NCBI GenBank assembly: GCA_015207195.1
Contig: JADEXJ010000033.1
Coordinates: 1 to 47,931 of the forward strand
Source of the DNA: Pleurocapsales cyanobacterium LEGE 10410
Lineage (GTDB): Bacteria; Cyanobacteriota; Cyanobacteriia; Cyanobacteriales; Xenococcaceae
Length of the DNA: 47,931 bases
Reading direction: 5' to 3'
Position 1 is the stretch's first letter, and each line of letters begins with the position of its first letter. This document shows positions 140-44,039 of the stretch, piece by piece. Made by a program: the position numbers and the translations under genes. Under the pieces are notes generated by a model. The model worked only from the letters and a program-made list of their open reading frames with translations, did not search any database and had not been told where the DNA came from.

Positions 140-211
140 AAGTGATTACTTAATTAAGTGAGTAAGTGAACAAGTATTCACTTAACTAAGTACTTACTTG
201 TTCAAGTGAAT
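140..211. repeat. Phased octamer array A, candidate centromere and parA operator
   Basis: Nine tetramers of AAGT or ACTT begin at 140, 148, 156, 164, 172, 180, 188, 196 and 204, an exact 8-bp period. The spacers are AT-rich. The array sits immediately upstream of parA. Ribbon-helix-helix partition proteins such as ParG and omega bind short phased boxes of this kind, so this is probably the binding site of the RHH partner. It may act as both operator and centromere. A smaller pair of boxes in the same phase (ACGT at 264, ACTG at 272) lies nearby. Confidence 0.75.
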
Positions 212-349
212 ACTAGCCTTAAAAAATAGATCTGGCAAATTTTTTCTTTAGACAATTATTTTTACGTAAACACTGATTCGAGGAAAGAACTATTTTAGCC
301 AGCTATGGTATTATATATAGTGCCATAATGGTTGGGTTTGAATCTAGAA

Positions 350-995: not shown

Positions 996-1085
996 ATTAA
1001 ACACATCTAAATTTGCTTGTGGATCTGGCAAGAAGCGGGGATTGAAAGTGTCAATTGAGAGAGGACAAATATCTGACGAGTGTTC

Positions 1086-2354: not shown

Positions 2355-2819
2355 ATGGCAACTACTCAGTTAAATAAACCTCATATTCCTTCTGAAGCCG
2401 AAGCAACTTTATCTCAGGAAAGTAGTCGCATTCTAGCTTCTTATTTACAGCATAGTAGCCCAACTCAAAAACTCAGAATTTTAGAAGAGAATGGTAACGA
2501 GCAAATACTAGAGATTCCTAAGAGTGCTTATCAGCTTTTAATCGATATTCTCTCTCAGATGGCGCAAGGTAATGCTGTTACGCTGATTCCCGTTCATGCT
2601 GAATTGACAACCCAAGAAGCAGCAGATCTACTTAATGTGTCCCGTCCATATCTAGTCAAATTACTCGAATCAAAACAAATACCTTTTCATAAAGTAGGTC
2701 GTCATCGACGCATTCGCTTTGAAGATTTAATGAATTATAAAAACCAAATCGATAGTGACAGGATACAAGCATTAGATGAACTTGCAGCACAGGCACAAGA
2801 ATTAGAGATGGGTTATTAA
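2355..2819 (+). CDS. Excisionase-type HTH antitoxin
   Basis: A protein of 154 residues with a MerR/excisionase-like helix-turn-helix at about residues 78-130. TTQEAADLLNVSRPYLVKLL is followed by a short wing, KVGRHRRIRFEDL, the standard layout of 'excisionase family' DNA-binding domains. The first 75 residues are a less conserved helical region. It ends six bases before a PIN toxin gene. HTH_17 proteins next to PIN genes are common antitoxins, so it should bind the toxin and repress the pair. An excisionase role for the recombinase at 3525-4439 is less likely because the PIN gene intervenes. Confidence 0.82.
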   Translation: MATTQLNKPHIPSEAEATLSQESSRILASYLQHSSPTQKLRILEENGNEQILEIPKSAYQLLIDILSQMAQGNAVTLIPVHAELTTQEAADLLNVSRPYLVKLLESKQIPFHKVGRHRRIRFEDLMNYKNQIDSDRIQALDELAAQAQELEMGY

Positions 2820-2825
2820 CGATCG

Positions 2826-3398
2826 ATGGGTTCAAACTTTACGGCAATTTATGATGCCTGTGTCTTGTATCCCGCACCTCTGAGAGATCTGTTAATGCAG
2901 TTGGCTTTGAGCGATTTGTATCGAGCGCGTTGGACGGAAAAAATCCACTCCGAATGGATGCGTAATGTTCTCAAAAATCGTCCAGATTTGAGCAAAAAAC
3001 AGCTTACGCGCACTAAAAATCTAATGGATAGAAGCGTTCGAGATTGTCTGATTGAAGGTTATGAATACATCATTCCATCTCTTGAGTTACCAGATCCAGA
3101 TGACAGGCATATTTTAGCAGCAGCGATTAAGGGACAAGCAGACATTATCGTGACGATGAATCTGAAAGATTTTCCTAATTCTATTTTGAGTGAATATGAA
3201 ATTGAGGCACAACACCCCGATATTTTTATTGCCGATCTGATAGACATTTATCCGATGAGAGTTGCCACGGCGGCAGAAGCTTGTCGTAAACGGTTAAAGA
3301 ATCCGCCAAAGTCTATTGATGAATATTTGGAAATACTATTAAAACAAGGGCTTACGGTTACAACTTCTCTACTGAAACAGTACTGTTATGAGATCTAA
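2826..3398 (+). CDS. PIN-domain toxin
   Basis: A protein of 190 residues of the PIN fold, longer than the short VapC type. The first acidic residue is in FTAIYDACVLYPAPLRDLL. The second cluster is ELPDPDDRHILAAAI, followed by DIIVTMNLKDFP. These are the acidic positions expected of a PIN ribonuclease. The C-terminal 50 residues (EAQHPDIFIADLIDIYP onward) match the helical extension of the PIN group found with HTH antitoxins. It lies six bases downstream of its antitoxin and should be co-transcribed. The target is unknown. Confidence 0.82.
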   Translation: MGSNFTAIYDACVLYPAPLRDLLMQLALSDLYRARWTEKIHSEWMRNVLKNRPDLSKKQLTRTKNLMDRSVRDCLIEGYEYIIPSLELPDPDDRHILAAAIKGQADIIVTMNLKDFPNSILSEYEIEAQHPDIFIADLIDIYPMRVATAAEACRKRLKNPPKSIDEYLEILLKQGLTVTTSLLKQYCYEI

Positions 3399-3424
3399 TA
3401 TTCGGACAAATAGTTGATAAGTGT

Positions 3425-3484
3425 AAGTGAGCAAGTGATTACGTATATAAGTAATCACATAAATACTGATTCAAGTGAACAAGT
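3425..3484. repeat. Phased octamer array C
   Basis: Eight tetramers at an exact 8-bp period start at 3425, 3433, 3441, 3449, 3457, 3465, 3473 and 3481. They read AAGT, AAGT, ACGT, AAGT, ACAT, ACTG, AAGT and AAGT. Like array B it lies between convergent gene ends (3398 on plus, 3525 on minus). It shares the longer word CTGATTCAAGT with array B and CTGATTCA with array D. Confidence 0.7.
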
Positions 3485-7823: not shown

Positions 7824-9563
7824 ATGGAGAAAGTCTATTTACCGTCTGGCTTGACAGCATCTATTTTTGGTTTAGTTTATCTAGCCGAATTTCCTCTTTC
7901 TGCGAACGCACAGCCAGCACCCGAAGAGCTTCCGCCACGAGAAACGCTCCAGCAAACTATTCCTCGAAATACACAACCCGTTCCCGAAACCAATCCCCTT
8001 GATGAGGAAAAACCAGAAATTTCCGTACCTGGTGGGGTGAATCCCCATCGATGCGAATTGTCGGTTAGCGAACCCAGACTCAACTATAAAGATCGCTTCT
8101 TTATTAGAGAGATTAAAGTAGTCGGTAACACCGTACTTCAGTCAGAGATAGACAGCATAATCAAAGATTCACAGCTAAAATATCGCACCGCTACCTTTGA
8201 AGACTTGGTTTGTCTGCGTTCTCGAATTACCCAGCTATATATTGATGAGGGATACGTAACCTCTGGTGCATTTTTGGTCAATAATCAAAACCTTGACGAT
8301 GGTATCGTGACCATACAGGTAGTGGAGGGAGAATTAGAAGAAATCGCGATCGCTGGGTTGGATCGCCTGTCTGAAAGCTATCTCCGCAGTCGTCTTAAAC
8401 TAGCTGCACAAAAACCCTTAAACAAAGACGATTTAGAAACGGAATTACAGCTTTTAGTTCTCAATCCTCTATTTGAAACCGTCGATGCCGAATTAACCGC
8501 AGGACAAAAAGCTGGCAGCAATGTTCTACTATTAGATGTCGAGCAAGCCAATAGTTTTACCGCCAGTATTGGCGTAGATAACTATCGCGCACCCAGTATC
8601 GGAGAATTTCAAGGTAGCGTTAGTTTGGGACATGGCAATCTTTTAGGGTTTGGCGATCGCCTGTACGCTCAGTACGGTTTTACTGAAGGATTGGATATTT
8701 ACAATACTAGCTATACGATTCCCTGGAATGCTTATGATGGCACGATTGGCTTTGGTTATGACAACAGCGATAGCGGGATTATTGAAGAAGAATTTCGCGA
8801 TTTAGACATCGACAGCGAAACAGAGACTTATTCATTTAACCTGCGACAACCCCTGACGAGAAATCCCAACCAGGAATTTACCCTTGGTTTGGGTTTGGAT
8901 CTGCGTCGCCGAAACACATCTTTGGGGGATGAGCCATTTTCCTTTTCGGTAGGACCTGAAAACGGTCAGTCTAAAACTACCGTACTCAAGTTTTCTCAGG
9001 ATTGGGTCAAGCGAGATGTTAGTACTGTTTTAGCAGCGCGATCGCAGTTAAATTTTGGGATCGATGCTTTTGATGCCACGATTAACGATACGGGAACTGA
9101 CGGTAAGTTTTTTGCTTGGCAGGGACAGTTTCAGTGGGTCGAGCAATTATCTCCCAGAGTGCTACTTATTACTAGAGTTGGCGGTCAATTTACGGACGAT
9201 TCGTTACTTTCTTTAGAAAGGTTTAGCCTGGGGGGAGTCAATACCGTTCGGGGTTATCAAGAGAATCAGTTAGTGACCGATAGTGGCGTGTTGGGTACTT
9301 TGGAATTGAGTATTCCCGTGACGGAAAATCCTACCACCTTGCAGCTAAATCCCTTTATCGAATTTGGGACGGGGTGGAATAATGAAGAACCAGATCCCGA
9401 TGATGCTACTATCGCCAGCGTCGGTTTGGGAGTGAACTGGAACGTTGGTGCGGGATTTGTGTTGAATGTCGATTACGGTATTCCCTTACTCGATGTGGAT
9501 GATGAGGGGGATTCTTTACAAGAAAACGGCTTCCATGTTTCTTTTAGGTATCAACCCTTTTAA
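7824..9563 (+). CDS. TpsB outer-membrane transporter (ShlB/FhaC/HecB family)
   Basis: This is the two-partner secretion pore that exports TpsA proteins across the outer membrane. A signal peptide ends near SANA-Q at residue 29 and is followed by a proline-rich linker. Two POTRA domains follow. The first, about residues 93-168, starts FFIREIKVVGNTVL. The second is about residues 170-240. The 16-strand barrel runs from about residue 245 to the end. The VRGY motif of the L6 loop is present in LGGVNTVRGYQENQ. The protein ends in a terminal phenylalanine (SFRYQPF), the usual beta-barrel signal. The length of 579 residues is typical. It is the only TpsB in the window, so it probably serves both TpsA proteins. 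Confidence 0.93.
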   Translation: MEKVYLPSGLTASIFGLVYLAEFPLSANAQPAPEELPPRETLQQTIPRNTQPVPETNPLDEEKPEISVPGGVNPHRCELSVSEPRLNYKDRFFIREIKVVGNTVLQSEIDSIIKDSQLKYRTATFEDLVCLRSRITQLYIDEGYVTSGAFLVNNQNLDDGIVTIQVVEGELEEIAIAGLDRLSESYLRSRLKLAAQKPLNKDDLETELQLLVLNPLFETVDAELTAGQKAGSNVLLLDVEQANSFTASIGVDNYRAPSIGEFQGSVSLGHGNLLGFGDRLYAQYGFTEGLDIYNTSYTIPWNAYDGTIGFGYDNSDSGIIEEEFRDLDIDSETETYSFNLRQPLTRNPNQEFTLGLGLDLRRRNTSLGDEPFSFSVGPENGQSKTTVLKFSQDWVKRDVSTVLAARSQLNFGIDAFDATINDTGTDGKFFAWQGQFQWVEQLSPRVLLITRVGGQFTDDSLLSLERFSLGGVNTVRGYQENQLVTDSGVLGTLELSIPVTENPTTLQLNPFIEFGTGWNNEEPDPDDATIASVGLGVNWNVGAGFVLNVDYGIPLLDVDDEGDSLQENGFHVSFRYQPF

Positions 9564-9608
9564 TAATTAGTAGCGATCGCTTTGGCTACTCTTGCTATTA
9601 AACACCAT

Positions 9609-9622
9609 GGCAGTTTTATGCA
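9609..9622. promoter_or_regulatory. GGCA-N6-TGCC-type palindrome upstream of the subtilisin gene
   Basis: GGCA-GTTTTA-TGCA, a seven-of-eight match to the palindrome that recurs across the island. It ends 131 bp before the ATG at 9753. It is followed by AGCGAGCGTAAAT, a word also present next to the site at 23756. The binding protein is unknown. Confidence 0.5.
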
Positions 9623-9752
9623 ATAGAGCGAGCGTAAATTAGTAATAATTCGCGCCCAAACAAGAAGTTCTATAGACATAAAGGGTGAATGTAATTCATA
9701 ACTAAAAATTTTATTCTTCAAAGTAAGCCAGCTTACAAACGAGGAATAAATC

Positions 9753-11717
9753 ATGTTTCAAGCATCAAAAAAACATAGATTTTCATTTGAAAACGATCGG
9801 CTCGCAGGAGATAACCAGAACAATCTCATAACTTCAGAAATACTCGATAGCAATTTATTATTTCGAGAATTAAATAATGATTTATTAGATTTTAAACCGT
9901 TTGTTGCCAACACAACAGATATTATCATTTCTGAAATTGACTCGACAAACGAACTATTAGAGCTATCTGAAGAAGTTGGTTTTGTAGAAAACACCTCAAC
10001 AGCAAACAATAATTTTTCTAATACCGAACGCAGTTCTGTTGAAAGTATCGATAGCAGCAATACAAACACTAGTTTTTTCAACAATGACGATTTTAACTTT
10101 ATTATTGATGATGCCAGTTTAGCAACGGCACAAGCTACTAACTCCGCCCATATAAATTATTCTCATGGTACTTTAGAAGCAGATACCTTTACTATCGATC
10201 CTCGTTACAGCCTTAACGTAATTTCTGGAAATGGCAACATTGAGTATAGCGACGGCGAGCGCGATTTGCTAGACCTTTCGGAAATTTCAATAGATCGAGT
10301 CAACGAGCTTAGTTTCGCTCAGATTGATGGTGGCGGTACGATTTTTGATTCAGGACAAGGCGATCGCGTTTTTGATTTTTTGACTTTGGACAATGGAGAC
10401 ACAATTCTTTTTGAAGGAATTGATCGAATTTTGTTCTCCGATTATGAATACGATCTAGCTGTAGACCCTAACGATCCAGGTTTTGAAGATCAGTGGAACT
10501 TACATCTGATGGGAGTGCAGAATGCTTGGCGTTTTACTACGGGTTCGGATCGGGTTCTCGTCGGCGTTCAAGATTCTGGATTGGGTATGTTTGAGGGAGA
10601 TTTTCATCCCGATCTAGTAAATACTATCTATTATCCTGACAACGTAGCCGACGAATTTTTTCGCGAAGTTTCAGGTGATTCACATCAACAAAATAGTTCC
10701 CATGGTACGGCAGTTCAGGGAATTATCGCTGCTGCTACGGATAACGGTACGGGCATTGCTGGAATTAATTGGAATTGTGATGTATTTAATATTGATGTTT
10801 TAGATGCTAATAATGGTGATTTTTCGCCAGCAGAAGCAACACAAGCGATGATTAACCATGCCAACAGCCAAGGTCAACGTCTCGTTATTAACATGAGCTT
10901 TGGTGGTGGAAGGATAGATCCTGCTTTTGAAGAGTTAGTAGCCAACAACCAAGATAATGCTCTATTTGTGATTGCTACTGGTAATCAAAGCAACAGTTCT
11001 ATTTCCGATCTTTCTTCCTTTGCTGATATTTACGATAATGTTATTGCTGTAGGTGCAATTGAAGCTGATGGTTCTCGCGCACCCTATTCCAACTACGGTC
11101 AAGGAATAACGTTAGTGGGTCCTACTGACGTTCCGAGTACAGGTGCTTTTCCCGACCAAAGATTTGGCTATCACGCACACTACGACGATAATCTTTTTAA
11201 CGGTACTTCGGCAGCTACACCCAACGTAGCGGGAGTTGCCTCTTTGGTTTGGAGTGCTAACCCCAATCTATCTGCTGCTGGTGTCAGATATATTCTCTCA
11301 GAAACTGCCTTCGACCTCGGAAATCAAGGCTATGATTTAGAATACGGTCACGGCTTAGTAAATGCCGATGCAGCAGTGCGACGGGCGATCGCTTTATCTC
11401 ATACTAATAGCAACGATCTGTCGGCATTAGATAGTGCTGCTAATTTTAATGAAGCAGACCATGATTTCTTAACAGGAAGCGATCGCCACAGTCAGGTAGC
11501 TTTTGCAGAAGATTCAATGCTGCTAACGCCCCAAGCTTTAGACCGTGTTTCTCTGGAACTGTTAGAAAACACTAGTTCCATCTTTAGTCTAGGTACTTCC
11601 AACAGCGAAGTAACTACCCAATCGCCAGACTTTCTTGAAGGCTTGAATTATAGTTCCGATCTTGCCTCGTTGAATAATTTGGGTGAGGAGAATTTCTATA
11701 ATACTGTAGAAATTTAA
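9753..11717 (+). CDS. Subtilisin-like serine protease (S8) with long N-terminal extension
   Basis: A serine protease with the complete S8 triad: Asp274 in GVQDSGLG, His317 in SSHGTAVQG and Ser486 in NGTSAATPNVAG, with the oxyanion Asn411 in ATGNQS. Residues 1-140 are asparagine- and serine-rich and look disordered. Residues 150-232 contain DLLDLSEISIDRVN and DGGGTIFDSGQGDRVFDF, resembling RTX-like calcium-binding segments of cyanobacterial exoproteins. There is no Sec signal peptide, so export would need another route, or the protein is intracellular. The C-terminal 110 residues have no recognised domain. It lies between TpsB and TpsA1 on the same strand, which suggests a role in cleaving surface proteins, possibly TpsA itself. 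That is inference. Confidence 0.9.
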   Translation: MFQASKKHRFSFENDRLAGDNQNNLITSEILDSNLLFRELNNDLLDFKPFVANTTDIIISEIDSTNELLELSEEVGFVENTSTANNNFSNTERSSVESIDSSNTNTSFFNNDDFNFIIDDASLATAQATNSAHINYSHGTLEADTFTIDPRYSLNVISGNGNIEYSDGERDLLDLSEISIDRVNELSFAQIDGGGTIFDSGQGDRVFDFLTLDNGDTILFEGIDRILFSDYEYDLAVDPNDPGFEDQWNLHLMGVQNAWRFTTGSDRVLVGVQDSGLGMFEGDFHPDLVNTIYYPDNVADEFFREVSGDSHQQNSSHGTAVQGIIAAATDNGTGIAGINWNCDVFNIDVLDANNGDFSPAEATQAMINHANSQGQRLVINMSFGGGRIDPAFEELVANNQDNALFVIATGNQSNSSISDLSSFADIYDNVIAVGAIEADGSRAPYSNYGQGITLVGPTDVPSTGAFPDQRFGYHAHYDDNLFNGTSAATPNVAGVASLVWSANPNLSAAGVRYILSETAFDLGNQGYDLEYGHGLVNADAAVRRAIALSHTNSNDLSALDSAANFNEADHDFLTGSDRHSQVAFAEDSMLLTPQALDRVSLELLENTSSIFSLGTSNSEVTTQSPDFLEGLNYSSDLASLNNLGEENFYNTVEI

Positions 11718-11895
11718 TTGACTTTGAATCGCTACAATAATTAAATTTTCTAAAATTCAGTACCGACAAGCGATCGCTCATCCGCAAAAGCGATATCTCA
11801 AAACAAGACATATATTTATTAACAAAATGCTTAATAAAAAGAGTATAAGAGAAGTTGTCAGGTAATCTAAAGAGTAAATTTCTGGTTGCCTCTCA

Positions 11896-14800
11896 ATGAA
11901 ACTCCTCTATCTTGCGTGTACTTTACAACTCTCTCCTTTAATCCTGGCTGCTACTCTATTTAGCAAAGCTAACCCTGCTTTATCCCAAGCCAGTAATATA
12001 GTCCCTGACAACACTTTGGGAGAAGAAAGTTCTCAGGTAATTGAAAATCAAAATGTCAATGGACTACCGACTGAAGTAATTACAGGTGGCGCACAGCGCG
12101 AACAAAACCTGTTTCACTCTTTTCAAGAATTTAACGTTAGTGAAGGAAGGGGAGCGATTTTTGCCAATCCTAATGCTATTGACAACATTTTCTCTCGCGT
12201 TACGGGTAGCAATCCATCTAATATTTTAGGCAGATTAGGAGTAGGCGGTGCTGCTAATTTATATTTGATTAATCCCAATGGGATTGTCTTTGGCGAGAAT
12301 GCTGCTTTAGACGTGCAGGGTTCGTTTACGGCTACTACCGCAGAAGGGATTGAGTTTAGTGAAGGTGGTTTGTTTAGTGCGGTTGAACCAGGAGAGTCTT
12401 TGTTGACTATCAGCGTTCCGTTAGGACTACAGTTTGGTTCGAGTCCAGGTAGTATCATCAATCTTTCTAAGTTTCCAGGTAATGCTAATGATAATGTTGG
12501 CTTACAAGTGCCTACAGGAGAAAATCTAACTTTAGTTGGTGGAGATATTCTTTTTGATGCAGGAGAAGCTACTGCGAGGGGAGGCAATATTTATCTTGGT
12601 GGTTTAGGCGCAGCAGGAACGGTTAATTTTAGTGATAATGGTAATTTAAGTTTTCCTGATAACATTGCCAAAGCAAATATTGTTTTTATTGATGCTGCTA
12701 ATGTAGATGTTAGTGGAACTGGAGGAAATATTACAATTGATGCCCAGAATCTTAGTTTGGCAGACCTTAGTTTTATTAAGGCAGGATTAACTGCTGATTC
12801 AATTTCTCCTGAGGCACAGGCAGGGGATATTACAATTAATGTTGCTGAAAACATCATTCTTGATAATAGCGGTATTGGGAATGTAATAATTGTTTCCGAG
12901 GCAGTTGGTAATTCTGGTGATATTTTTATTAATACTGGTTCTTTAAAAATAATTGATGGTAGTGTTATTGGTACTGTACTTTCTGGCAAAGGAAATATAG
13001 GAGTAGTCGAAATTAACGCTACGGGTGACATTGTAATAGATGGGGAAGATTCAGTTGGTGGCATTATTAGTCAAGTTGATTCAGATGCCGAAGGAGATGC
13101 AGGTGGGGTGACTATCTCGACGAATAATCTCAATTTGACTAATGGAGGTGAAGTTTCTGCTAGTACCTTCGGTCAAGGAAATGCAGGGGCAATCAAGATT
13201 ACCGCTACGGGTGATATTCTAGCTGATGGGGAAGATTCGGAAGGCTCTCAAAGTGGCATTACTAGTCTAGTTAATCCAGGTGCCGAAGGAGATGCAGGTG
13301 GGGTGACTATCTCGACCAATAATCTCAATTTGACTAATGGGGGTAGAGTTTCTGCTTCTACTTTTGGGCTAGGAAATGCAGGGGCAATCAAGATTACCGC
13401 TACGGGTGAGATTCTAGCTGATGGGGAAGATTCAGACGGTTTGGCTAGTGGCATTATTAGTCAGGTTGCTTCAGGTGCCGAAGGAGATGCAGGTAGGGTA
13501 ACTATCTCTACTACCAATCTTAATCTAACTAATGGGGGTGAAGTTGATGCCACTACCTTGGGTAAAGGTAATGCAGGAGCGATAGATATTACCGCTAAGG
13601 GGGACATTACAGCCGATTTGGCTAGTGGCATTATTAGTGGAGTTGCTTCAAGTGCCGAAGGAAATGCAGGTGGGATAACTATCTCTACTACCGATCTTAA
13701 TCTAACTAATGGAAGTGGAGTTTCTGCTTCTACTGCGGGTAAAGGTAACGCAGGAGCAATAGATCTTACCGCTACGGGTAAGATTACAGCCGATGGCGAA
13801 GATTCAGACGGTTTGGCTAGTGGCATTATTAGTCAGGTTGCTTCAGATGCCGAAGGAGATGCAGGTGGGGTGACTATCTCGACGAATAATCTAAGCCTGA
13901 CTAATGGAGGTGGAGTTTCTGCTTCTACTTTTGGGCTAGGAAATGCAGGAGCAATAGGTATTACCGCTAAGGGTGAGATTACAGCCGATGGCGAAGATTC
14001 AGACGGTTTGGCTAGTGGCATTACTAGTATAGTTAAGCTAAATGGAGTGGGAGATTCAGAAGGAATAACTATCTCGACCAATAATCTAAGCCTGACTAAT
14101 GGTGGGAACGTTAATGCTAGTACCTTCGGTCAGGGTAATGCAGGAGCAATCAAGATTACCGCGACGGGTGATATTCTAGCTTCGGGGGAAGATTCAGACG
14201 GTGTTCTTAGTGGCATTACTAGTCTAGTTAGTCCAGATGCAGAAGGAAATTCCGAAGGAATAACTATCTCGACGAATAATCTCAATTTGACTAATGGTGG
14301 TTTTATTGATGCTAGTACTTTTGGGCTAGGAAATGCAGGGGCAATCAAGATTACCGCTACGGGTGAGGTTACAGCTGATGGCGAAAATTCAGACGGTTTT
14401 GGTAGTGGCATTAGCAGTCAGGTAAGAACAGGTGCCGAAGGAGATGCAGGTGGGATAACTATCTCGACGAATAATCTCAATTTGACTAATGGGGGTAGAG
14501 TTGATGCCTCTACTTTGGGTCAGGGAAATGCAGGGGCAATAGGTATTACCGCTACGGGTGAGGTTACAGCTGATGGCGAAAATTCAGACGGTTTTGAAAG
14601 TGGTATTATTAGTGGAGTGGATACTAATGCCGAAGGAGATGCAGGTGGGGTGACTATCTCGACGAATAATCTAAGCCTGACTAATGGAGGTGGAGTTTCT
14701 GCTAGTACTTTTGGACTGGGAAATGCAGGAGAAATTAGAATATACGCTAATTCTGCCAATCTCGACCGAGACTCATCAATCACTAGTATTAGTGAATCTA

Positions 14801-15525
14801 GTTTTAGTGCAGGAGATATTATTTTAAATGTACCTGATTACTTACAACTAACAAATAGCTCGATCTCAACAAGTTCAACTCAATCTTCTGGAGGTAATTT
14901 AACTATCTTTGCAGGAGGTATTCAGCTTCAAGGCAACAGCGATATTACGACCGATATTTCTTCGGGAATAGGAAGCGGGGGAAATATTACTCTGACTGCC
15001 GATTCAATTCTTGCTTTTGATGACAGCGATATTTTTGCTTCTGCACCAGAGGGACGAGGAGGAAATATAACTTTCAATACTTTTGCTTATTTTGGGGAAA
15101 ACTTTACTCGTAATTCTTTAACTGCCGATCCTGATGAATCAGATTTAGATCTCAATAATCGCGCCGATGTTAACGCTACAGGTGCGGTGTCATCTGGTGT
15201 AGTAGAAATTCCCGATGTGAGCTTTATTCAAAACAGCCTCACCGAACTACCTAACAACTCTCTCGATACCGATGAATTGGTGGCTAATAGTTGCGTCGTG
15301 CCAGTAGGGGATAGAAGCCAGGGTAAATTTATTATTACTGGGGGTGAAAGTTTACCAGTACGTCCTGGAGGGAATTTACCTTCTAAGTATCCGACAGGTG
15401 AAGTGCGTGGCGTGTCTGAAGATAATGCTAGTAGTTGGCAACCAGGCGATCCGATTATCGAACCCCAAGGTGCTTATCGTCTGGCTAATGGCAAGATGGT
15501 ATTGAGTCGCGAATGTTCGCAGTAA
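11896..15525 (+). CDS. TpsA filamentous-haemagglutinin-type exoprotein 1
   Basis: A large surface or secreted beta-helix protein of 1209 residues. The signal peptide ends near LSQ at about residue 31. The TPS secretion domain follows, with the signature NPNGIVFG and the conserved start SNIVPDNTLG. The middle is a tandem array of 65-residue units (13090-14740) containing NAGAIKITATG and NLTNGG words. The C-terminal 170 residues form a conserved tail (VANSCVVP, GKFIITGGESLP, LANGKMVLSREC) shared with TpsA2 and with the fragments at 5764 and 29013. The TpsB gene lies 2.3 kb upstream on the same strand. The region just upstream (TCAGGTAATCTAA at 11857-11872) is also found before TpsA2. The likely role is adhesion or matrix formation. 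Confidence 0.92.
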   Translation: MKLLYLACTLQLSPLILAATLFSKANPALSQASNIVPDNTLGEESSQVIENQNVNGLPTEVITGGAQREQNLFHSFQEFNVSEGRGAIFANPNAIDNIFSRVTGSNPSNILGRLGVGGAANLYLINPNGIVFGENAALDVQGSFTATTAEGIEFSEGGLFSAVEPGESLLTISVPLGLQFGSSPGSIINLSKFPGNANDNVGLQVPTGENLTLVGGDILFDAGEATARGGNIYLGGLGAAGTVNFSDNGNLSFPDNIAKANIVFIDAANVDVSGTGGNITIDAQNLSLADLSFIKAGLTADSISPEAQAGDITINVAENIILDNSGIGNVIIVSEAVGNSGDIFINTGSLKIIDGSVIGTVLSGKGNIGVVEINATGDIVIDGEDSVGGIISQVDSDAEGDAGGVTISTNNLNLTNGGEVSASTFGQGNAGAIKITATGDILADGEDSEGSQSGITSLVNPGAEGDAGGVTISTNNLNLTNGGRVSASTFGLGNAGAIKITATGEILADGEDSDGLASGIISQVASGAEGDAGRVTISTTNLNLTNGGEVDATTLGKGNAGAIDITAKGDITADLASGIISGVASSAEGNAGGITISTTDLNLTNGSGVSASTAGKGNAGAIDLTATGKITADGEDSDGLASGIISQVASDAEGDAGGVTISTNNLSLTNGGGVSASTFGLGNAGAIGITAKGEITADGEDSDGLASGITSIVKLNGVGDSEGITISTNNLSLTNGGNVNASTFGQGNAGAIKITATGDILASGEDSDGVLSGITSLVSPDAEGNSEGITISTNNLNLTNGGFIDASTFGLGNAGAIKITATGEVTADGENSDGFGSGISSQVRTGAEGDAGGITISTNNLNLTNGGRVDASTLGQGNAGAIGITATGEVTADGENSDGFESGIISGVDTNAEGDAGGVTISTNNLSLTNGGGVSASTFGLGNAGEIRIYANSANLDRDSSITSISESSFSAGDIILNVPDYLQLTNSSISTSSTQSSGGNLTIFAGGIQLQGNSDITTDISSGIGSGGNITLTADSILAFDDSDIFASAPEGRGGNITFNTFAYFGENFTRNSLTADPDESDLDLNNRADVNATGAVSSGVVEIPDVSFIQNSLTELPNNSLDTDELVANSCVVPVGDRSQGKFIITGGESLPVRPGGNLPSKYPTGEVRGVSEDNASSWQPGDPIIEPQGAYRLANGKMVLSRECSQ
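13090..14740 (+). repeat. 195-bp in-frame tandem repeats in TpsA1, eight units plus a partial
   Basis: Units begin at 13090, 13285, 13480, 13657, 13852, 14047, 14242, 14437 and 14632. All steps are 195 bp except one of 177 bp, where unit 3 lacks six codons. Each unit encodes about 65 residues. Some neighbours are nearly identical at the DNA level, which implies recent duplication or homogenisation. Copy-number change would alter the length of the adhesin stalk without breaking the frame. Confidence 0.92.
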
Positions 15526-23769: not shown

Positions 23770-23848
23770 AAGTCTAAAAATTGTTTAAATTTCTTGTGAT
23801 ACTGGATTTTTCAGGTAATCTAATTTAAAAAGCTAATTGCGATCGCCA

Positions 23849-26800
23849 ATGAACCCGATTTATTTTGCTTGCCCTCTCCGTTCCTTAGCTCTAATTCTGT
23901 TTGCAACTATCGTCAGCCAAACCAACTCTGTCTTTGCTCAAGATAGCAATATTGTCCCCGATAATACTCTGGGTGCAGAAAGTTCGGTAGTAAATCCTAG
24001 AGATGAAAATAGCGACAGTATTGATGGTGGTGCGCTACGGGGTTCTAATTTATTTCATTCTTTCCAAGAGTTTAATGTCGGTGAAAATAGAGGGGTTTAT
24101 TTTACCAATCCCGATGCAGTTAATAACATCTTCTCTCGCGTTACGGGGAATAGTCAATCGAATATTTTAGGTACGTTGGGAGTAGACGGTGCTGCTAATT
24201 TGTATTTAATTAATCCCAATGGGATTGTTTTTGGCGAGAATGCTGCTTTAGATGTACAGGGTTCGTTTACTGCCACCACCGCAGAGGGGATTGAGTTTGG
24301 TGAAGGTGGTTTGTTTAGTGCAGTAGCACCAGGAGAATCACTGTTGACTATTAGCGTTCCGTTAGGACTACAGTTTGGTTCGACTCCAGGGAGTATAGTC
24401 AATCGCTCTTTTGTAGAAGATGAGACAGGGGAGTTTGTTGGTTTACAAGTACCTACGGGAGAATATCTAACTTTAGTCGGTGGAGAAGTCAGGTTTGAGG
24501 CGGGAGAAGCTACAGCAAGGGGTGGAAATATTAATATAGGTGGATTAGGTACAGCAGGAACAGTTGGTTTAAATGATGATGGCAGTTTGAGTTTTCCAGA
24601 AGTTGTAACAAAAGCAGATGTCACCTTGAGTAATTTTGCTGAGATAGATGTTACTGGTACAGGGGAAGGAAGCGTTACTATTGATGCTCAAAATGTAAAT
24701 ATTGAAGCTGGTGAGTCTGGTTCTAGTTTAATAAGAGCAGGAATAACGGCAGATTCAACTTCAGCAGATGCTCAAGCAGGAGACATTACAATTAATGTTA
24801 CTGATAATTTAACTATTGATGACAGTTCAATTTTAAACCAAGTCGATTTGGCAGCTATAGGAAATGCAGGCAATGTAGCGATTAAAACTCAAGATATGAG
24901 TTTAAAAAATGGCGGAGAAATTAGCACCAGTACTTTTGGTGAGGGAGATTCGGGGAACATTTCTATTATTGCTAATAATACAATTGCTCTTGATGCCAGT
25001 TCCTATATTGTTAACAACGTGCAAGATAGCGAAGCAGTAGGCAATGCTGGCAAGATTGAGATTACGACTGGTTCGCTCTCAGTAACTAATGGCTCTCAAA
25101 TTAATTCCTTTACTCGCGGAACAGGGAATGCAGGAGATATCACAATTCAAGCAACCGAGGCAATCACTTTTGATGGCTTAGATAACGGCGATTACAGTAG
25201 TGCATCTAGTACTGTTGAAGCAGGTGGTACAGGGGATGGAGGCAGTATTAATATTGCAGCAGGTTCATTATCTTTAACTAACGGTGGCGAGTTAGATGCT
25301 AGTGTTCGTGAAGCTTCAGATTCTCTTCCAGGTGGCAATGGTCGGGGAGGCAATATCAACATCAATGTAGATGATACTCTGACAATTGCTGACGGAGATA
25401 CACCAAGAATAGTTGCCAGTTTAGGCACAGGTGCTAAAGGAAAGGGCGGAAATATTGACATTCAAGCTGGCAATTTGGTTGTTAAAAATAGTGGAGAAAT
25501 TAGTGCAAGTACTTCTGGTCAAGGAGATTCGGGAAATGTTTCCATCACAATTGATAATGCAATTTCTCTGGATGATTCTATTATTTTCAACAATGTAAAT
25601 AGCGAAGCAGTAGGCAAAGCTGGCAGGATTGAGATTACTACTGGTTTACTGTCAGCAACTAATGGCTCTCAGATTAATTCCTTTACTCGCGGAACAGGGA
25701 ATGCGGGAGATATCACCATTCAAGCAACAAATGCAGTTACTTTTGATGGTGTAGATGGTAACAATTTTCCAAGTGGTTTGTTTACCAATGTAGACACTGG
25801 AGCGAATGGTAGTGGAGGAGATATTAATATTACAGCAGATTTTTTATCTCTAACTAACGGTGCTGAGTTAAATGCTAATGTCGATGAGGCTTCAAATTTT
25901 CTTTCAGCTAATTCTAATATCAACTCAAGTACGCCAAGTAGCTCAGGAAACATTAGTATACTAGCTTCAAATATAACTCTTAACAATTCTGCTGAGATTT
26001 CTACTTCAAACTTGATAGGTGAAAATGGTGGAGATATCAATATAAACGCAGCAAAGCTACAACTAAATAATGGAAGTAATATTTCTACTAATAATGGCAC
26101 TCTTAAAACTTCTGAGCAACAAAACAGTGGTACTGCTGGAGAATTAAAAATTCGAGCAACAGACTCAATCGGCTTAGGTAGGGATAGTTCTTTATTTACA
26201 GTTGCCACTGGATTTGGAAGCGGAGGAAACATTTTACTCGATACTAAAAACATTTCGATTGATGGCGGAACAATATCGAGTTCAGCAATTAATATTGCTG
26301 AGTTTTTAAACACTTTCTCAGAAACCCTGGATTTGAATATTATATTAGAATCACTTGGTTATAATCCAGACGAAGGTATATCAGTTGACGAATTTATTAA
26401 TAATTTTGTTAATGAAAATATTAATGATGATATAGAACAAGGTAATTCAGGTGATATTTTTATTAAGGCATCAGAATCAATAGATGTATTTGGCGAAAAT
26501 AGCAGCAGCAATACAGCAGGTATTTTAACCTCTGGCACAGGAAATGCTAATGGAGGAAATATTTCAATAACATCACCAAAATTGAGCCTTATACAAGGAA
26601 TAATTACTACAGGAACTGCTGGTGCAGGAACTTCGGGAAATATTGATATTACTAATGCAGAAAGTGTAGAAATAGTTGACGGCACATTATCTGCTAACAC
26701 ATCCATTAATAGTTCAGGGAATGGAGGATATTTAAGTATCTCCACTCAAAACTTACTTATTGAAGAAGGCGGGTCTATTTCTACTTCAACTGAAGGAGCA

Positions 26801-28267
26801 GGAGATTCGGGCGATATTTCTATTGTCGCAAACAATACAATTTCTCTGGATGATTCTACTATTGTCAACAATGTACAAGATAGAGAAGCAGTAGGCAAAG
26901 CTGGCAGGATTGAGATTATAACTGGTTCTCTCTCGGCAACCAATGGTAGTCAAATTAATTCCTTTACTCGCGGAACAGGGAATGCGGGAGATATCACCAT
27001 TCAAGCAACAAATGCAGTTACTTTTGAGGGAGTCGATAATAACGATAATTACAGTAAAGCATCTAGTAGTGTTTTAGCAGGTGGTGTTGGCAATGGAGGA
27101 GACATCAATATTACAGCAGGTTCATTGTCTTTAATCAATGGAGGAGAGATAGACGCTAGAGTCAGTGCAGCTTCAGATTCTCTTCCAGGTGGCAATGGTC
27201 AAGGTGGTAATATCAATATTAGTGTAGATGATACCCTAACAATTGCTGACGGAGATACACCAAGAGTAGTTGCCAGTTTGGGTACAGGTGCCAAAGGAAA
27301 AGGTGGCAATATTAACATTCAAACAGGAAACCTGATTGTTAAAAATGGCGGAGAAATAAATACAGATACCTCTGGAACAGGAGATGCAGGAAATATCAAA
27401 ATTAATGCTAATCAAGGTATATCTCTTAACAATAGTAATATTTTTAGTGAAGTTAATAATAATGCTCAAGGTAAAGCAGGAACTACAACAATTATTACTA
27501 ATAAACTATTTCTGACAAACGATAGTGTTATCGGCAGTCGCGCTTTTGGAGAAGGAAAAGCGGGAGATATTACTTTAAACATCGCTGATTTTTTACAAGC
27601 AGCAGACAGCTTCATTTCTACTAGTTCAACTCAATCTTCAGGAGGTAATTTAACTATTACTGCTGGTGATATTCAACTTCGAGGTGACAGCGATTTGACA
27701 ACCGATATTGCTTCGGGAGAAGGTAGCGGAGGAAATATAGTTATTAAAGCTAATTCGGTTGTTGCTTTTGATGATAGTGATATCTTTGCATCCGCACTAG
27801 AAGGACAAGGAGGAGATATAACTCTCGATACTCCTGCTTTCTTTGCCGAAAACTTTACCTTTAACTCTTTAACTGCTAATCCTGATGACTTAGATCTCAA
27901 TGATCGCGCCGATCTCAACGCTACAGGTGCGGTATCATCGGGTGCGGTATCGATTCCCGATGTTAGCTTTATTCAAAACAGCCTGACCGAATTACCAGAT
28001 AACTCAATTAATACCGATGAATTAGTGGCTAATAGCTGCGTCGTACCAGTGGGAGATCGAAGTCAGGGGAGGTTCATTATTACAGGTGGTGAAAGTTTGC
28101 CAGTGCGTCCTGGGGGTAATTTACCTTCTAAGTATCCGACAGGAGAAATAAGAGGCGCATCTGAAAATACTAGTAGTTGGCAACCAGGAGATCCGATTGT
28201 TGAAGCTCAAGATGCTTATCGTCTGGCTAATGGGGAGTGGGTATTAAGTCGCGAGTGTCCTCGATAG
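23849..28267 (+). CDS. TpsA filamentous-haemagglutinin-type exoprotein 2
   Basis: An exported beta-helix protein of 1472 residues. I choose the ATG at 23849; a TTG at 23837 falls in a HIP1 octamer. The signal peptide ends near VFAQ. The TPS domain includes SNIVPDNTLGAESS and NPNGIVFG. The body has long internal repeats: a block of about 175 residues at roughly 24940-25500 recurs at 26790-27380, and part of it at 25500-25760 (NSFTRGTGNAGD occurs three times). The C-terminal tail matches TpsA1 closely. There is no TpsB next to it, so it likely uses the one at 7824. A PIN pair and a tail relic follow immediately. Confidence 0.92.
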   Translation: MNPIYFACPLRSLALILFATIVSQTNSVFAQDSNIVPDNTLGAESSVVNPRDENSDSIDGGALRGSNLFHSFQEFNVGENRGVYFTNPDAVNNIFSRVTGNSQSNILGTLGVDGAANLYLINPNGIVFGENAALDVQGSFTATTAEGIEFGEGGLFSAVAPGESLLTISVPLGLQFGSTPGSIVNRSFVEDETGEFVGLQVPTGEYLTLVGGEVRFEAGEATARGGNINIGGLGTAGTVGLNDDGSLSFPEVVTKADVTLSNFAEIDVTGTGEGSVTIDAQNVNIEAGESGSSLIRAGITADSTSADAQAGDITINVTDNLTIDDSSILNQVDLAAIGNAGNVAIKTQDMSLKNGGEISTSTFGEGDSGNISIIANNTIALDASSYIVNNVQDSEAVGNAGKIEITTGSLSVTNGSQINSFTRGTGNAGDITIQATEAITFDGLDNGDYSSASSTVEAGGTGDGGSINIAAGSLSLTNGGELDASVREASDSLPGGNGRGGNININVDDTLTIADGDTPRIVASLGTGAKGKGGNIDIQAGNLVVKNSGEISASTSGQGDSGNVSITIDNAISLDDSIIFNNVNSEAVGKAGRIEITTGLLSATNGSQINSFTRGTGNAGDITIQATNAVTFDGVDGNNFPSGLFTNVDTGANGSGGDINITADFLSLTNGAELNANVDEASNFLSANSNINSSTPSSSGNISILASNITLNNSAEISTSNLIGENGGDININAAKLQLNNGSNISTNNGTLKTSEQQNSGTAGELKIRATDSIGLGRDSSLFTVATGFGSGGNILLDTKNISIDGGTISSSAINIAEFLNTFSETLDLNIILESLGYNPDEGISVDEFINNFVNENINDDIEQGNSGDIFIKASESIDVFGENSSSNTAGILTSGTGNANGGNISITSPKLSLIQGIITTGTAGAGTSGNIDITNAESVEIVDGTLSANTSINSSGNGGYLSISTQNLLIEEGGSISTSTEGAGDSGDISIVANNTISLDDSTIVNNVQDREAVGKAGRIEIITGSLSATNGSQINSFTRGTGNAGDITIQATNAVTFEGVDNNDNYSKASSSVLAGGVGNGGDINITAGSLSLINGGEIDARVSAASDSLPGGNGQGGNINISVDDTLTIADGDTPRVVASLGTGAKGKGGNINIQTGNLIVKNGGEINTDTSGTGDAGNIKINANQGISLNNSNIFSEVNNNAQGKAGTTTIITNKLFLTNDSVIGSRAFGEGKAGDITLNIADFLQAADSFISTSSTQSSGGNLTITAGDIQLRGDSDLTTDIASGEGSGGNIVIKANSVVAFDDSDIFASALEGQGGDITLDTPAFFAENFTFNSLTANPDDLDLNDRADLNATGAVSSGAVSIPDVSFIQNSLTELPDNSINTDELVANSCVVPVGDRSQGRFIITGGESLPVRPGGNLPSKYPTGEIRGASENTSSWQPGDPIVEAQDAYRLANGEWVLSRECPR

Positions 28268-28354
28268 CGATCGCCCCTAGGTATCTAGAGGAGCTAATCG
28301 CCAACTAATTTGTATTCTATGATAAAGACCTCACTCTTTTTTCTGCCCTCGATT

Positions 28355-28582
28355 ATGACAACTGAAGAAATAAAAATTCGCGTCGATTCTGAAACTGCTA
28401 AAGCCTTTAATTCTACTTCTGCTCAAGAACGCCAGAAGTTGGAACTTTTGCTGAATCTTAAATTGAAAGAATCTTTAAGCCAAGGTGATTCTCTATTAAA
28501 AATTATGGATGAAATCAGTAAAGAAGCTGTAGATAAAGGGCTAACACCTGAAATTCTACAAACTCTGCTTGAGGATGAGTGA
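28355..28582 (+). CDS. Antitoxin of a PIN toxin pair
   Basis: A small acidic protein of 75 residues from the ATG at 28355. An upstream frame to 28310 exists, but its sequence (hydrophobic, Phe-rich) does not look like part of the protein. It starts TTEEIKIRVDSETAKAF, a strand and helix like a short RHH or related dimer domain, and ends in an acidic helix (PEILQTLLEDE). It overlaps the start of the PIN gene by eight bases, the usual arrangement for a coupled antitoxin-toxin pair. The exact antitoxin family is not recognised. Confidence 0.75.
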   Translation: MTTEEIKIRVDSETAKAFNSTSAQERQKLELLLNLKLKESLSQGDSLLKIMDEISKEAVDKGLTPEILQTLLEDE

Positions 28583-28979
28583 TCTTTACGTTCTCGACAC
28601 TAATATTTTAGTAAGTGCTTTGCTATTTGCCAATTCTGCACCTAGAAAAGCTTTTGAACTGGCTTCAAGTACTGGCAAAATACTGATTTCTCAGGAGACA
28701 ATAGACGAACTGAATAGGGTGTTGAGTCGCCCCAAATTTGAGCGATACATTTCACAAGCCAAACGCGAACGATTTTTACTCGCTTTTGTTCAAAAATCTG
28801 TGTTGATAGAAATTCAGGAGACAATAGAAGAATGTCGCGACCCCAAAGATAATAAATTTTTAGAATTGGCTGTGAGTGGTAAAGCTACAGCAATTATCAG
28901 TGGAGATAAGGACTTATTAGTTTTACATCCATTTCGAGACATTCCTATTCTTACCGTCAGTCAATTTCTCGATTCTTAA
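28575..28979 (+). CDS. PIN-domain toxin
   Basis: A predicted ribonuclease toxin of 134 residues. The first acidic motif is YVLDTNILVSALLF, the second ECRDPKDNKFLELAVSGKA, and the closing strand IISGDKDLLVL, all canonical for the PIN family. The ATG at 28575 is preferred. It is encoded just after TpsA2 and followed at 29013 by a relic of the TpsA tail. The pair therefore sits between two copies of that tail. Confidence 0.85.
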   Translation: MSDLYVLDTNILVSALLFANSAPRKAFELASSTGKILISQETIDELNRVLSRPKFERYISQAKRERFLLAFVQKSVLIEIQETIEECRDPKDNKFLELAVSGKATAIISGDKDLLVLHPFRDIPILTVSQFLDS

Positions 28980-29131: not shown

Positions 29132-29422
29132 ATGCAGCGAGATCGAGTTTTGTCTATTCTAAATGCCCATCAAGCCGATTTACAAAATCTTGGTGTCAAA
29201 TCTTTAGAAATCTTTGGTTCGGTAGCGCGAGACGAAGCTCGTCCCGATAGTGATGTTGATTGCTTGGTAGAATTCTCTATTGAAGCAAGTCTATTCGATT
29301 TATTTAGAGTCAGGCATTATATTAAAGATTTACTCAAATGTGAAGTTGACTTGGGAACTAGAGATGCTTTGCGAGAACATTTGCGAGAACCTATTTTAAA
29401 GGATGTAATTCGTGTCTTCTAG
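29132..29422 (+). CDS. mntA: MntA-like nucleotidyltransferase antitoxin
   Basis: A minimal nucleotidyltransferase of 96 residues. It has the GS motif at Gly29-Ser30 (EIFGSVARDEARPDSDVD) and the DxD at Asp41/Asp43, followed by a third acidic position in VDLGTRD. In MntA-HepT systems this enzyme adenylylates the HEPN toxin and so neutralises it. The gene overlaps the downstream HEPN gene by eleven bases. The length and motif spacing are typical. Confidence 0.9.
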   Translation: MQRDRVLSILNAHQADLQNLGVKSLEIFGSVARDEARPDSDVDCLVEFSIEASLFDLFRVRHYIKDLLKCEVDLGTRDALREHLREPILKDVIRVF

Positions 29423-29768
29423 AGCTTGGCAGTTCCGCGTGCGGGATATTATAAATGCGGTTAATAGTATCGAGCAGCGTACAGCAAAAATGACCTATGA
29501 GGAATTTGCAGCTAATGAAACAGTTGTGAAATCAGTTCTCTACGATTTCATAGTCATTGGTGAAGCATCGAGAAATATTCCTGCCGAAATCCAATCTCGC
29601 TATGCTCAAATACCTTGGCGTTTATCAAGCGATATGCGAAATATCGTAGCTCACGAATATTTTCAGGTAAATTTAATGCTAATTTGGAGAACTATCCAGA
29701 ATAATCTCTCACCTTTAAAACTACAGTTATTAGACTTATTAGAAAATGAAAATGAAGACAAGACTTGA
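29412..29768 (+). CDS. hepT: HepT-like HEPN ribonuclease toxin
   Basis: A DUF86/HEPN protein of 118 residues starting at a GTG inside the mntA frame. The active motif R-x4-H-x-Y is intact (Arg76, His81, Tyr83 in MRNIVAHEYF). The helical HEPN body includes YDFIVIGEASRNIP. It should act as an RNase dimer that is silenced by adenylylation of the motif tyrosine. It is the fourth toxin-antitoxin pair on the plasmid in coordinate order and ends before a strong two-way terminator. Confidence 0.9.
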   Translation: MSSRAWQFRVRDIINAVNSIEQRTAKMTYEEFAANETVVKSVLYDFIVIGEASRNIPAEIQSRYAQIPWRLSSDMRNIVAHEYFQVNLMLIWRTIQNNLSPLKLQLLDLLENENEDKT

Positions 29769-33989: not shown

Positions 33990-36900
33990 TTAATTAACTT
34001 TTATCAACGAAGAATTGAATCCTTGGTTATTAAAATCTTCGCCTCTCAAAATAGTAAGGTACTGTTTTAGTTTTTGTTTCAGCTCTGAATTTAATTTATC
34101 GAGAGTATTTTTCGACTTTTCAATCCAATTTTCATCTGTATCCATGCACCCCTCTAATGTATAAATACCCTCTTTATTGGGGGGAGTGGTTACGGAGTTA
34201 AGAGGTGGCTCAATACCGTATTGCGTCTGCATTCTATCTTGATGTTCTCGATTCCTTTCGAGCTGTTCGAGTTCTTTTCGAGCTTTCTCTTCTCGTTGCT
34301 CAATTCGATACTGCAATACCTCAAGGGCAAAAATAGTATCTTCTTTAGCTAGGGAATAATATCTAATCTGTTCTCCTCGTTTACCCTTTTTACGAGAAAC
34401 AGTTTTCAGTCCCAATTGACCGATTAATACACCCAGCAGCCACATCGGTTTACAGTTTTCGGGAATAGTGAGATTGAGAATATGCTTAATATGAACTCTA
34501 GAGGCGATCGCTATCTCTGTCATTTTTGTTACATCAGAGTCGCTAGCACAGATTTCTTCACCCTCCATTAAACGAGTAACCAGTTTGGGCAAGCCTAGAT
34601 TGTAACGAGCCAGCCATTTACTTGAGTAGTTATGCCAATCCATACACAAAGGTAAATTATCCCTTTCTTTCAAATCTTTATCGGCAACTATTTGTGGAGG
34701 TGCGGGATATTCTCGATTGGTATTAGGGTCAACAATTTTACCTTCAGAGTTAGCCAGCAGAGATTCTAAGGCGATTAACTGACTAATCAGACATCCTTGT
34801 GCATCCTTCCTAACAAGCTCCTCTGTAACATCCATGCCATAATCGCGCTTGATGCGGTACTTTTCGCATTCAACTATTTCCTCTGGCTCTAAATAATCTT
34901 TAGCTTGACGAGATAGGTATTCGGTCGAGCTGATATCATTGGCATTAACTATTGCTAATTGATGGGCAGTATCTAAATAGCGACCAACTTCAAGCATTTT
35001 GTTTTTAACCATTACGTCACTGTCCGATTCTACAGTAGTAATGTTATATGCCATTTCTTCTAGTAAAGTTAAAAGGTCATCTCGAAGATTATTAATCGAA
35101 TAATTACGTTGGGCTTCAATTTCACAGTAAGCATTTAACGCCCAATCTTTTTCTGCTCCTCTAGTACCGCTTTCAGGGTTAATACGAATTAAAAAAGCTG
35201 TCATTTGATTGAGTTGCAGCATACTTTTTTTAATCTTTTCGGCACTAGTTTCTTGGTAGCCAAAAGGAGGACGAGGAGCGACCCAGATGTGCAAAGGTAC
35301 TTGGTGGCGATAGCGATGTAGAGCCTGAGCGCATTCTGTTGCCGATTGAGAAACCGCATGAAATGCCCCAAAAACCGCATCGAAATGATAGTCACAGATG
35401 TCTACTCCCGTACCCAAGCTAGGGGAAGCTAAAAGAGCATCGACATTTTTTACTTGGTTCGAGATATCTTTGATAAATGCTTTATTCTCCTTAGAACCGC
35501 TATTATCGGCATGGATCGACCAAATACGTAGTTGACTACCTTTTTGGGAGTTAAGCCCTGTTTCTGGCTCAAATAACGACCGCTGTTCGTCAACCTGAAC
35601 TGCCATCATTGCCTCTAACTTCTTGATGAACTTTTTCGAGTCACTAACCACCATGATTTTTAGTCCCATCATCAAAGCAGTGGAAATCTTAGCTACTAAG
35701 GCACTGCTGTCTCGATCTTCGTAGAAATGTACTTCTCTGCCAGCCTGTCTGTATTCGTTTTTGATAATAAAAGGAACTTCCCCTTCTGGGCGCATAGCGC
35801 GGAAGAAATCTACGGTAACATCGTTCATGTGAGCATCGGCTAGGACGACTAGCTTGGCTTTACCGATGATGTATTCTAAAACTTCTAAAATTTCAGCCCG
35901 ATGTTCTTTACAGGTGTTGCTGTGGAGTAGATGGGCTAAATTCTGACAGGCTTCATCGACGAACACGCAATCGTATTCGTTGTACTGAGTTTGCAGCTTG
36001 TAGAGGCTGTCTAAGGTAATGGAAAGACTGAGTGCTTTAGCCAATTGTCCCTGAGAGATTTCCGAGTACATCTGGGTAGATAATCGCTCGGAAAGATTCT
36101 TCATCAGGTTGACCCGATGACCGATGTTGAGAAATCTCGCACGAGGATGCTCTCTACGGAGTTTTGCTAGCAATTCCGTCTTACCAGTCCCCATACCACT
36201 TTCTATCGCTATTAGACCCCTTGTAGGCAGGCTGAGGGCATCGCTGAGGTATTGGGTGTTGAGGGTAACGTTAGCAGGATACTTTTTACTCAGTCCCCAG
36301 GTTTTTTTTCTAGATTTTCTGAGATAGTCTTTAAGAGCTAAAGCGCGGTCTAGAATTTTGGCAACTAGGGATAAAGCACGCTTGCCATTGGCGGTAACAA
36401 AATCATCGACTCCTTTTTCTGAACCTTCGGGTAAAGATGCGATCGAACAGGATGCCCCCGCAGCCTCGATAACTTTACCAGTCATGACACTGGCTAAATG
36501 AACTGCATGACGAGTGCTGGGCTTTTCGTCGTTGTCGAACAGGATGATAAACTTACGCCCTTTACTTACCATTGGCATTAAGTCGGGGTGTAGGTAATCT
36601 ATGCCAGTCACTTGGTTTTTAACTCGACCCATCCAGATTCCAGGAAGGGCGATCGCTACAAAACCTAGAGAAAGCAAACAAGCAGCTTTCTTTTCTCCTT
36701 CGGTCAGGATAATCGGAATTTCGGGATGTTTTGCTATCCACGACCAAAAGCAGTAGTTATCAGTAGGTTCTGTATTTGGTCTGGAAGGAAATTGCCCTAA
36801 AGGACGACGCGAAGCTAGTGCCGTGGCATACCGCGACCCATACAAATTGGCTGGCAGAAAGGCAGCAGGTTTAACTCCACCTTTGAGGCAATCTGAGAGG

Positions 36901-43954: not shown

Positions 43955-44039
43955 TATTGCTCCGCCCAAATTGCGCTCTATTCGACGTTAGTTTTTTTCG
44001 TGGCTAAACTTGAGTTGTATTATATTTATAACTAATTTT

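Follow-up and report, generated by a model that had tools for sequence, protein, structure and literature searches.

Which role does DNA play in which short boxes recur at exactly eight base pairs directly ahead of a parA gene? The question arose from a contig of 47,931 nt, here called the window, that belongs to a genome of 6.64 Mb in 392 contigs, which we take for cyanobacterial in view of its relatives and of a CyRepA1 gene. The window contains four such arrays. Judging from the sequence we consider it highly probable that they serve as both centromere and operator in plasmid partition of type Ib (ParF/ParG-like), where they would be coated by the predicted RHH protein encoded next to parA.

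Phased arrays in the window

A sequence-only reading had described nine tetramers at positions 140 + 8n without a slip. Indeed, AAGT or ACTT occupied nine of nine tetramer positions of array A between 140 and 207; taken as hexamers of the form YAMKTR (see below) the array spans 139-208 and consists of nine units. The same reading had listed three further 8-bp-phased arrays with nine, eight and six boxes, and coordinates and phase were confirmed for each. Array B (1086-1153) carried family boxes at all nine positions (AAGT, ACTT, ACGT, ACTG) and five consecutive strict hexamers at 1117-1154. The eight phased positions of array C (3425-3484) comprised seven family boxes and one ACAT, with four strict hexamers at 3424-3453. 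In array D (47060-47103) all six phased positions were family boxes (ACTG ACGT ACTT ACTT CAGT ACGT), and three strict hexamers lay at 47067-47088. Beyond these four the whole contig had no run of four or more family boxes with up to two misses permitted, and strict YAMKTR chains of at least three units were confined to arrays A, B, C and D (9, 5, 4 and 3 hexamers).

The excess at a period of 8 bp was evaluated with Markov-simulated sequences, 200 each of order 1, 3 and 5. The contig contained 17 AAGT/ACTT pairs at lag 8, while the simulations yielded 5.5 ± 2.6 (order 1), 3.9 ± 2.0 (order 3) and 3.7 ± 1.8 (order 5) with a maximum of 14 among all 600 sequences; the autocorrelation by which the sequence-only reading was to be judged was thus clearly present. 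The longest run of core boxes only was nine in the contig versus three across the 600 simulated sequences. Strict YAMKTR chains of at least three did not occur in any of 30 simulated sequences. Lag-8 counts, run length and strict-chain simulations together rule out that the arrays arose by chance.

We also considered arrays A, B and C as diverged copies of one another. In box register they were pairwise identical at 34 to 40 of 56 positions, and the same-register identity to arrays of other species was 33 to 40 of 56. Because the in-register identity was no higher than between species this idea was dropped, and the likeness of A, B and C is attributed to the shared motif alone. In the three pairwise comparisons the first box position was invariant, and each of the other seven differed somewhere. 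Among 15 flank pairs compared, the left flanks of arrays B (1063-1083, forward strand) and C (3404-3424, forward strand) were the only pair above chance with 17 of 21 identical positions, a value reached by 2 of 1994 random pairs. This match may be the trace of a duplication. An isolated GTAAACACTGATTCGAG at 266-282 resembled 17 bp within array B (88%) and array C (82%) and is possibly what is left of an array that has decayed.

The unit is a palindromic hexamer at a pitch of 8 bp

The palindromic hexamer YAMKTR plus 2 bp describes the repeat unit better than a tetramer. We inspected 162 boxes from seven replicons, taken from array spans that were set by hand. End units were left out in L004 (two arrays) and L035 (one array), and three units inside the spans are not family boxes. 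A pyrimidine (C or T) preceded the tetramer and a purine (A or G) followed it in about 99% each, and these two flanking positions had played no part in selecting the boxes.

In the discovery set of seven loci the distance to the next hexamer was 8 bp in 92 cases, 4 bp in 18, 16 bp in 10 and 12 bp in two; 6, 10 and 20 bp occurred once each. In a test set of nine loci the distances were 8 bp (78 cases), 16 bp (21), 4 bp (10), 13 bp (2) and 12 bp (1). For these counts the discovery set and L040 were represented by hand-chosen par regions, L042-L049 by whole loci. Distances of 7 or 9 bp were found neither in the discovery set nor in the test set. With the 8-bp pitch present in 17 of 17 orthologous loci, this supports a conserved spacing, as put forward in the sequence-only reading, and a pitch of 7 bp as used by omega was rejected. 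Arrays within one locus may differ in phase, e.g. in pAQ5, where 65 bp separate the starts of the two upstream arrays. The spacing would fit a rigid side-by-side binding inside arrays and a loose linkage between them.

parA and its small partner gene

The parA gene runs on across the contig ends. Its 5' part is at 1-134 on the reverse strand with the start codon at 134-132, its 3' part at 47420-47931 on the same strand. The contig ends have 7 bases in common and, when this overlap is collapsed, both ends read in frame as a ParA of 212 aa. Because the ends join in this way the contig very likely is a circular plasmid of about 47.92 kb. ParA matched the NCBI model NF041546 with an E of 2e-77. 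The best PDB matches were 5u1g ParA (E 1.6e-24) and 4dzz ParF (E 1.7e-24); Orf delta' of pSM19035 matched more weakly than ParF (E 9.4e-7). The protein thus is a short, ParF-like ParA without an N-terminal HTH, as in type Ib systems.

The gene at 47091-47426 (reverse strand) shares 7 bp (47420-47426) with the end of parA. It encodes a candidate centromere-binding protein of 111 aa with a charged N-terminal end and RHH-like residues at 70-108; the N-terminal end was rich in Lys and Arg in six of six aligned family members. A search of PHROGs gave a weak match to an Arc-like repressor (E 0.0034). With the family profile ORF E73 ranked first in the PDB (E 0.04) and ParG second (E 0.091); both covered the same stretch, and the weak ParG match was colinear and near the C-terminal end. 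The NCBI families gave no match. The Pfam model for ParG, PF09274, matched one of six RHH family members (E 0.038), the contig protein did not match at E 1, and the family fails the curated cut-off. Two AlphaFold models were poor (pLDDT 58 and 61) and contained two helices and no strand; the helices of the low-confidence model, at 77-86 and 96-108, are located where RHH proteins have them. The matches are weak but consistent and point to a protein of the RHH type. A small partner gene directly after parA that encodes an N-terminal tail and, by these weak matches, a C-terminal RHH is likewise as in type Ib systems.

The 3' end of this gene overlaps array D, which starts inside the final codons and extends beyond the stop: the boxes 47092-47095 and 47100-47103 sit in the last codons, stop included. 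The terminal codons Arg-Asn-Tyr-stop (47091-47103) double as the first boxes of the downstream array, and the same was seen in several orthologues. Thus, the constraints on protein and on DNA site overlap here.

The arrays accompany the RHH protein

Relatives of the RHH protein were gathered from plasmids, genome contigs, genome samples and viral contigs; phage records yielded none at E 0.01. Seventeen loci with an RHH orthologue were compared, i.e. the contig, L001, L003, L004, L010, L035, L036, L037, L040 and L042-L049. They count as about 15 independent ones because L043 and L044 are near-identical (2928 of 3276 25-mers shared) and L001 and L003 belong to one genus. Excluding the contig itself, the RHH orthologues were 34 to 63% identical to the contig protein. 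In all 17 loci a strict chain, i.e. at least three hexamers, was located no more than 150 bp ahead of parA, and the arrays comprised between 3 and 13 strict units.

In the first eight loci, the number of lag-8 boxes upstream of parA was above all 500 simulated sequences in seven; the stretch assayed was 1026 bp for the contig, including arrays A and B, and 500 bp for the others. In L036 (G185), the upstream array of which has only three boxes, 33 of the 500 simulated sequences attained the observed count. Past the RHH gene, the lag-8 boxes outnumbered those of all 500 simulations in eight of eight loci. The test set (L040 and L042-L049, two of nearly the same sequence) was found once the hexamer was already defined. 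Chains of at least three hexamers were present in nine of nine loci, and 50 shuffles of each yielded none.

Five loci with a ParA 54-70% identical and no RHH orthologue, hand-picked among 60 ParA matches listed of at least 5000, had no strict chains (0 of 5). Their lag-8 counts did not exceed one pair, and those upstream in L006 and downstream in L008 were reached by 68 and 10 of 500 simulated sequences, respectively. Because all 17 RHH loci and none of the five RHH-less ParA loci carried chains we concluded that, across the loci compared, the arrays travel with the RHH protein rather than with ParA. The view of the arrays as part of a parA-RHH module, with the product of 47091-47426 as the likely binder, is supported by these data.

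Several further hits were kept outside the 17. L002 is a near copy of L001 with arrays present, L005 is the contig itself, and L011 and L012 are Picosynechococcus again with arrays as in L002 and L003. The same places, judged by contig and position, were hit twice in L013 (= L035), L014 (= L036), L028 and L038 (= L010), L029 (= L037) and L041 (= L004). G682 and G707 had partial RHH matches. L030/L039 (G531) had an RHH match of only 39 residues and four boxes at L039:6213-6240; the ORF list of L039:5000-8000 contained no parA, and the locus looks like a remnant. L015-L027 were weak RHH matches, 11 of the 13 in ORFs of about 650-680 aa, and carried arrays in none of 13.

The distribution of the family was examined in samples of the phylum, the order and the class, which overlap and include the contig's own genome. 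In the phylum sample 5 of 386 genomes had the RHH family at E below 1e-20; at E 0.001 the number was 18 of 386, those beyond the five being mostly unrelated long ORFs. In the order and class samples, with 388 genomes each, 7 and 15 genomes, respectively, had a match at E 1e-8 or better. Strong matches are scattered over the genome samples. Four named plasmid records had a match: pAQ5 of PCC 7002 and plasmids of PCC 7003, PCC 7117 and Leptolyngbya BL0902.

Comparison with known partition systems

The novelty of the repeat was assessed with three ParG loci. In each of them ACTC/GAGT boxes of either orientation preceded parF at a spacing of 8 bp, with 6, 6 and 7 lag-8 pairs that none of 500 simulated sequences reached. 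Such boxes were also located between parF and parG in two of the three loci, and in two of the three a GAGT box stood directly before the parF start codon. The sequence-only reading could name no counterpart of an octamer with a mixed-orientation tetramer core and suggested that it may be a new class of centromere. This inference is weakened because the three ParG loci show mixed-orientation ACTC/GAGT in the same 8-bp phase.

The code of the boxes differs. The ParG box is asymmetric, an A following ACTC in 94% of 33 boxes, and the three ParG loci had no lag-8 pair of the cyanobacterial boxes. Conversely, no ACTC/GAGT lag-8 pair was detected upstream or downstream in eight of eight orthologous cyanobacterial loci, and an ACTC box specificity was rejected for them. 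Taken together, the ParF-ParG-parH system of TP228 (4dzz, 1p94) shares with the locus studied here a ParF-type ParA, an adjacent small partner with a C-terminal RHH and mixed-orientation tetramers at 8-bp spacing upstream of parA. It differs in its ACTC(A)/(T)GAGT boxes, which are replaced by palindromic YAMKTR here, and in the location of the arrays: here strict chains are found past the RHH gene as well and, in the contig, at distances of 1.0 and 3.3 kb. Furthermore, ParG of TP228 has 76 aa compared to 111 aa of the RHH protein, which has no accepted Pfam ParG match.

The delta-omega-parS system of pSM19035, a type Ib system of Firmicutes, similarly combines an RHH protein with contiguous short repeats in either orientation and has several arrays per plasmid that overlap promoters, according to PMC9499535. 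Its unit, as given there, is the 7-bp non-palindromic WATCACW, in contrast to the 8-bp palindromic units of the present arrays. According to the same paper, full activation of the ATPase by omega requires four or more contiguous repeats, and the orientations tested did not differ in this respect (PMC9499535).

Plasmids of Fischerella NIES-4106, Nostoc ATCC 53789 and Oceanimonas GK1 and the Chlorobium plasmid pCL1 encode a ParA 54-59% identical, and in three of these plasmids parA is immediately followed by a small gene. Yet they have no 8-bp YAMKTR chains and carry TTTCTGTA/TACAGAAA upstream of parA instead. These sites were located at L007:3960-4001, L008:3960-4001, L009:3862-3885 and L034:1556. 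They stood upstream of parA in four of the five RHH-less loci (not in L006), and three loci also had them close to where the partner gene ends. They are perhaps another centromere code.

Because the ParG loci share the mixed-orientation 8-bp layout, the working principle is known. Among the literature matches listed, none was by its title an account of such a centromere in cyanobacteria. As far as could be found, the novelty consists of the box code, its palindromic symmetry and the arrays at both operon ends.

Operator, antitoxin site or iteron

Might the RHH protein use the arrays solely to repress parA-rhh, and perhaps neighbouring genes, with the centromere located elsewhere? Array A abuts the parA start codon at a distance of 4 bp, and in nine of the 17 loci the last strict hexamer lies 0-5 nt before, or at, the parA ATG. 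At the edge of array A a motif scan found a promoter-like TTGCCA-17-TAGTAT (210-238, reverse strand) that faces parA, though at chance level (one found, and 1.0 expected when the 321 bp scanned were shuffled). However, 13 of the 17 loci also have strict chains at or beyond the RHH stop, where the operon's last gene ends; they were absent there in L035, L043, L044 and L045, L035 having a looser array downstream of the RHH gene. Moreover, strict chains lie far upstream, at 1.0 and 3.3 kb in the contig and at about 1.7 to 3.4 kb in L036, L037 and L040, where no parA promoter is expected. We therefore consider a role as operator only improbable. An operator role does not exclude a centromere role, because every parS of pSM19035 overlaps a promoter and TP228 has further repeats (OF) between parH and the genes, as described in PMC5016525.

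Alternatively, the arrays could serve as toxin-antitoxin operators bound by the HicB-like antitoxin encoded at 771-995 or by the product of 1217-1528. Array B is flanked by these two genes, the product of 771-995 resembles HicB (E 7.6e-6), and in PCC 7117 (L003) a pair annotated as PIN/HicB precedes the upstream array. The product of 1217-1528 had no match above cut-off and resembles a small DNA-binding protein by eye only. Relatives of 771-995 (E 0.01 or better) were found in none of nine array-bearing loci searched and a relative of 1217-1528 in one (L035), whereas the orthologue of 47091-47426 was present in nine of nine; we regard this explanation as very unlikely. Equally hard to credit are replication iterons or a structural repeat without a tie to partition: short phased repeats are found at replication origins too and the plasmid encodes a CyRepA1 replication gene, but this gene (33990-37421) is devoid of a strict chain and the chains accompany the RHH protein in 17 of 17 loci.

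A proposed partition mechanism

Thus we favor the view that the arrays are centromere and operator DNA of a type Ib partition system. The sequences demonstrate the arrays, their phase and palindromic unit and their tie to this RHH family; the steps of binding, repression, ATPase activation and partition are inferred. If the RHH protein of 111 aa behaves like ParG and omega, its dimers would bind side by side, one per 8-bp unit, with cooperativity between neighbours. The unit, a pseudo-palindromic YAMKTR with an AT-rich spacer of 2 bp, would suit a two-fold RHH dimer in either direction. Because one dimer would occupy each unit and neighbours would cooperate, a run of coated units may form a protein rod that presents many N-terminal tails to ParA. 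In the ParG family the tail carries an arginine finger that stimulates the ATPase. The coated DNA would recruit and activate the ParF-type ATPase, moving plasmid copies over the nucleoid. Since array A is placed at the parA start codon, its occupation would shut the parA promoter, and the RHH protein would repress its own operon. Array D at the far end of the operon and the more distant arrays B and C could act as extra loading sites.

We tentatively suggest, as a possibility that is far from assured, that the loci represent a cyanobacterial family of centromeres in its own right, served by an RHH protein of its own. The pitch of 8 bp may have been reached independently or may have been retained while the code turned palindromic (YAMKTR). 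The arrays that bracket the operon might pair or loop its ends when coated, the downstream array lying partly within the last codons of its binder.

For a family of cyanobacterial plasmids, among them pAQ5 from the widely used laboratory and engineering strain Picosynechococcus sp. PCC 7002, the analysis predicts a centromere together with the sequence code it follows. With two codes known at the 8-bp pitch, this one and that of ParG/parH, it may be asked which features of type Ib centromeres depend on geometry and which on sequence. YAMKTR at 8 bp may serve as a simple rule for finding such sites.

Other genes on the plasmid

An actin-like gene is located at 44010-45796 (FcmB match, E 1.6e-9, below the curated cut-off). 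A gene for 149 aa without a family overlaps and follows it, and the two are possibly a second partition pair of the ParM type. Likely toxin-antitoxin modules were found at 332-995, between arrays A and B, at 2355-3398, between arrays B and C, and at 28310-28979 and 29132-29768. PIN-domain genes were identified by Pfam at 332-769 and 2826-3398; the modules at 28310-28979 and 29132-29768 were recognized by eye. In the Picosynechococcus plasmids 171 bp encoding a small hypothetical protein (L001:4280-4450, L002:4479-4649, L003:4332-4502) are labelled ACT-82 beta-lactamase among the resistance predictions of the plasmid collection, apparently spuriously because 171 bp is far too short.

A relaxase gene (40869-42644) and a NikA/MobC-like gene (43160-43591) suggest that the plasmid is probably mobilizable. 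Finally, the region 7824-15525 holds two-partner secretion genes, for a ShlB/FhaC-like transporter and a large TPS-domain protein, that flank a subtilase gene, and by eye 23837-28267 resembles a gene for a second TPS protein.
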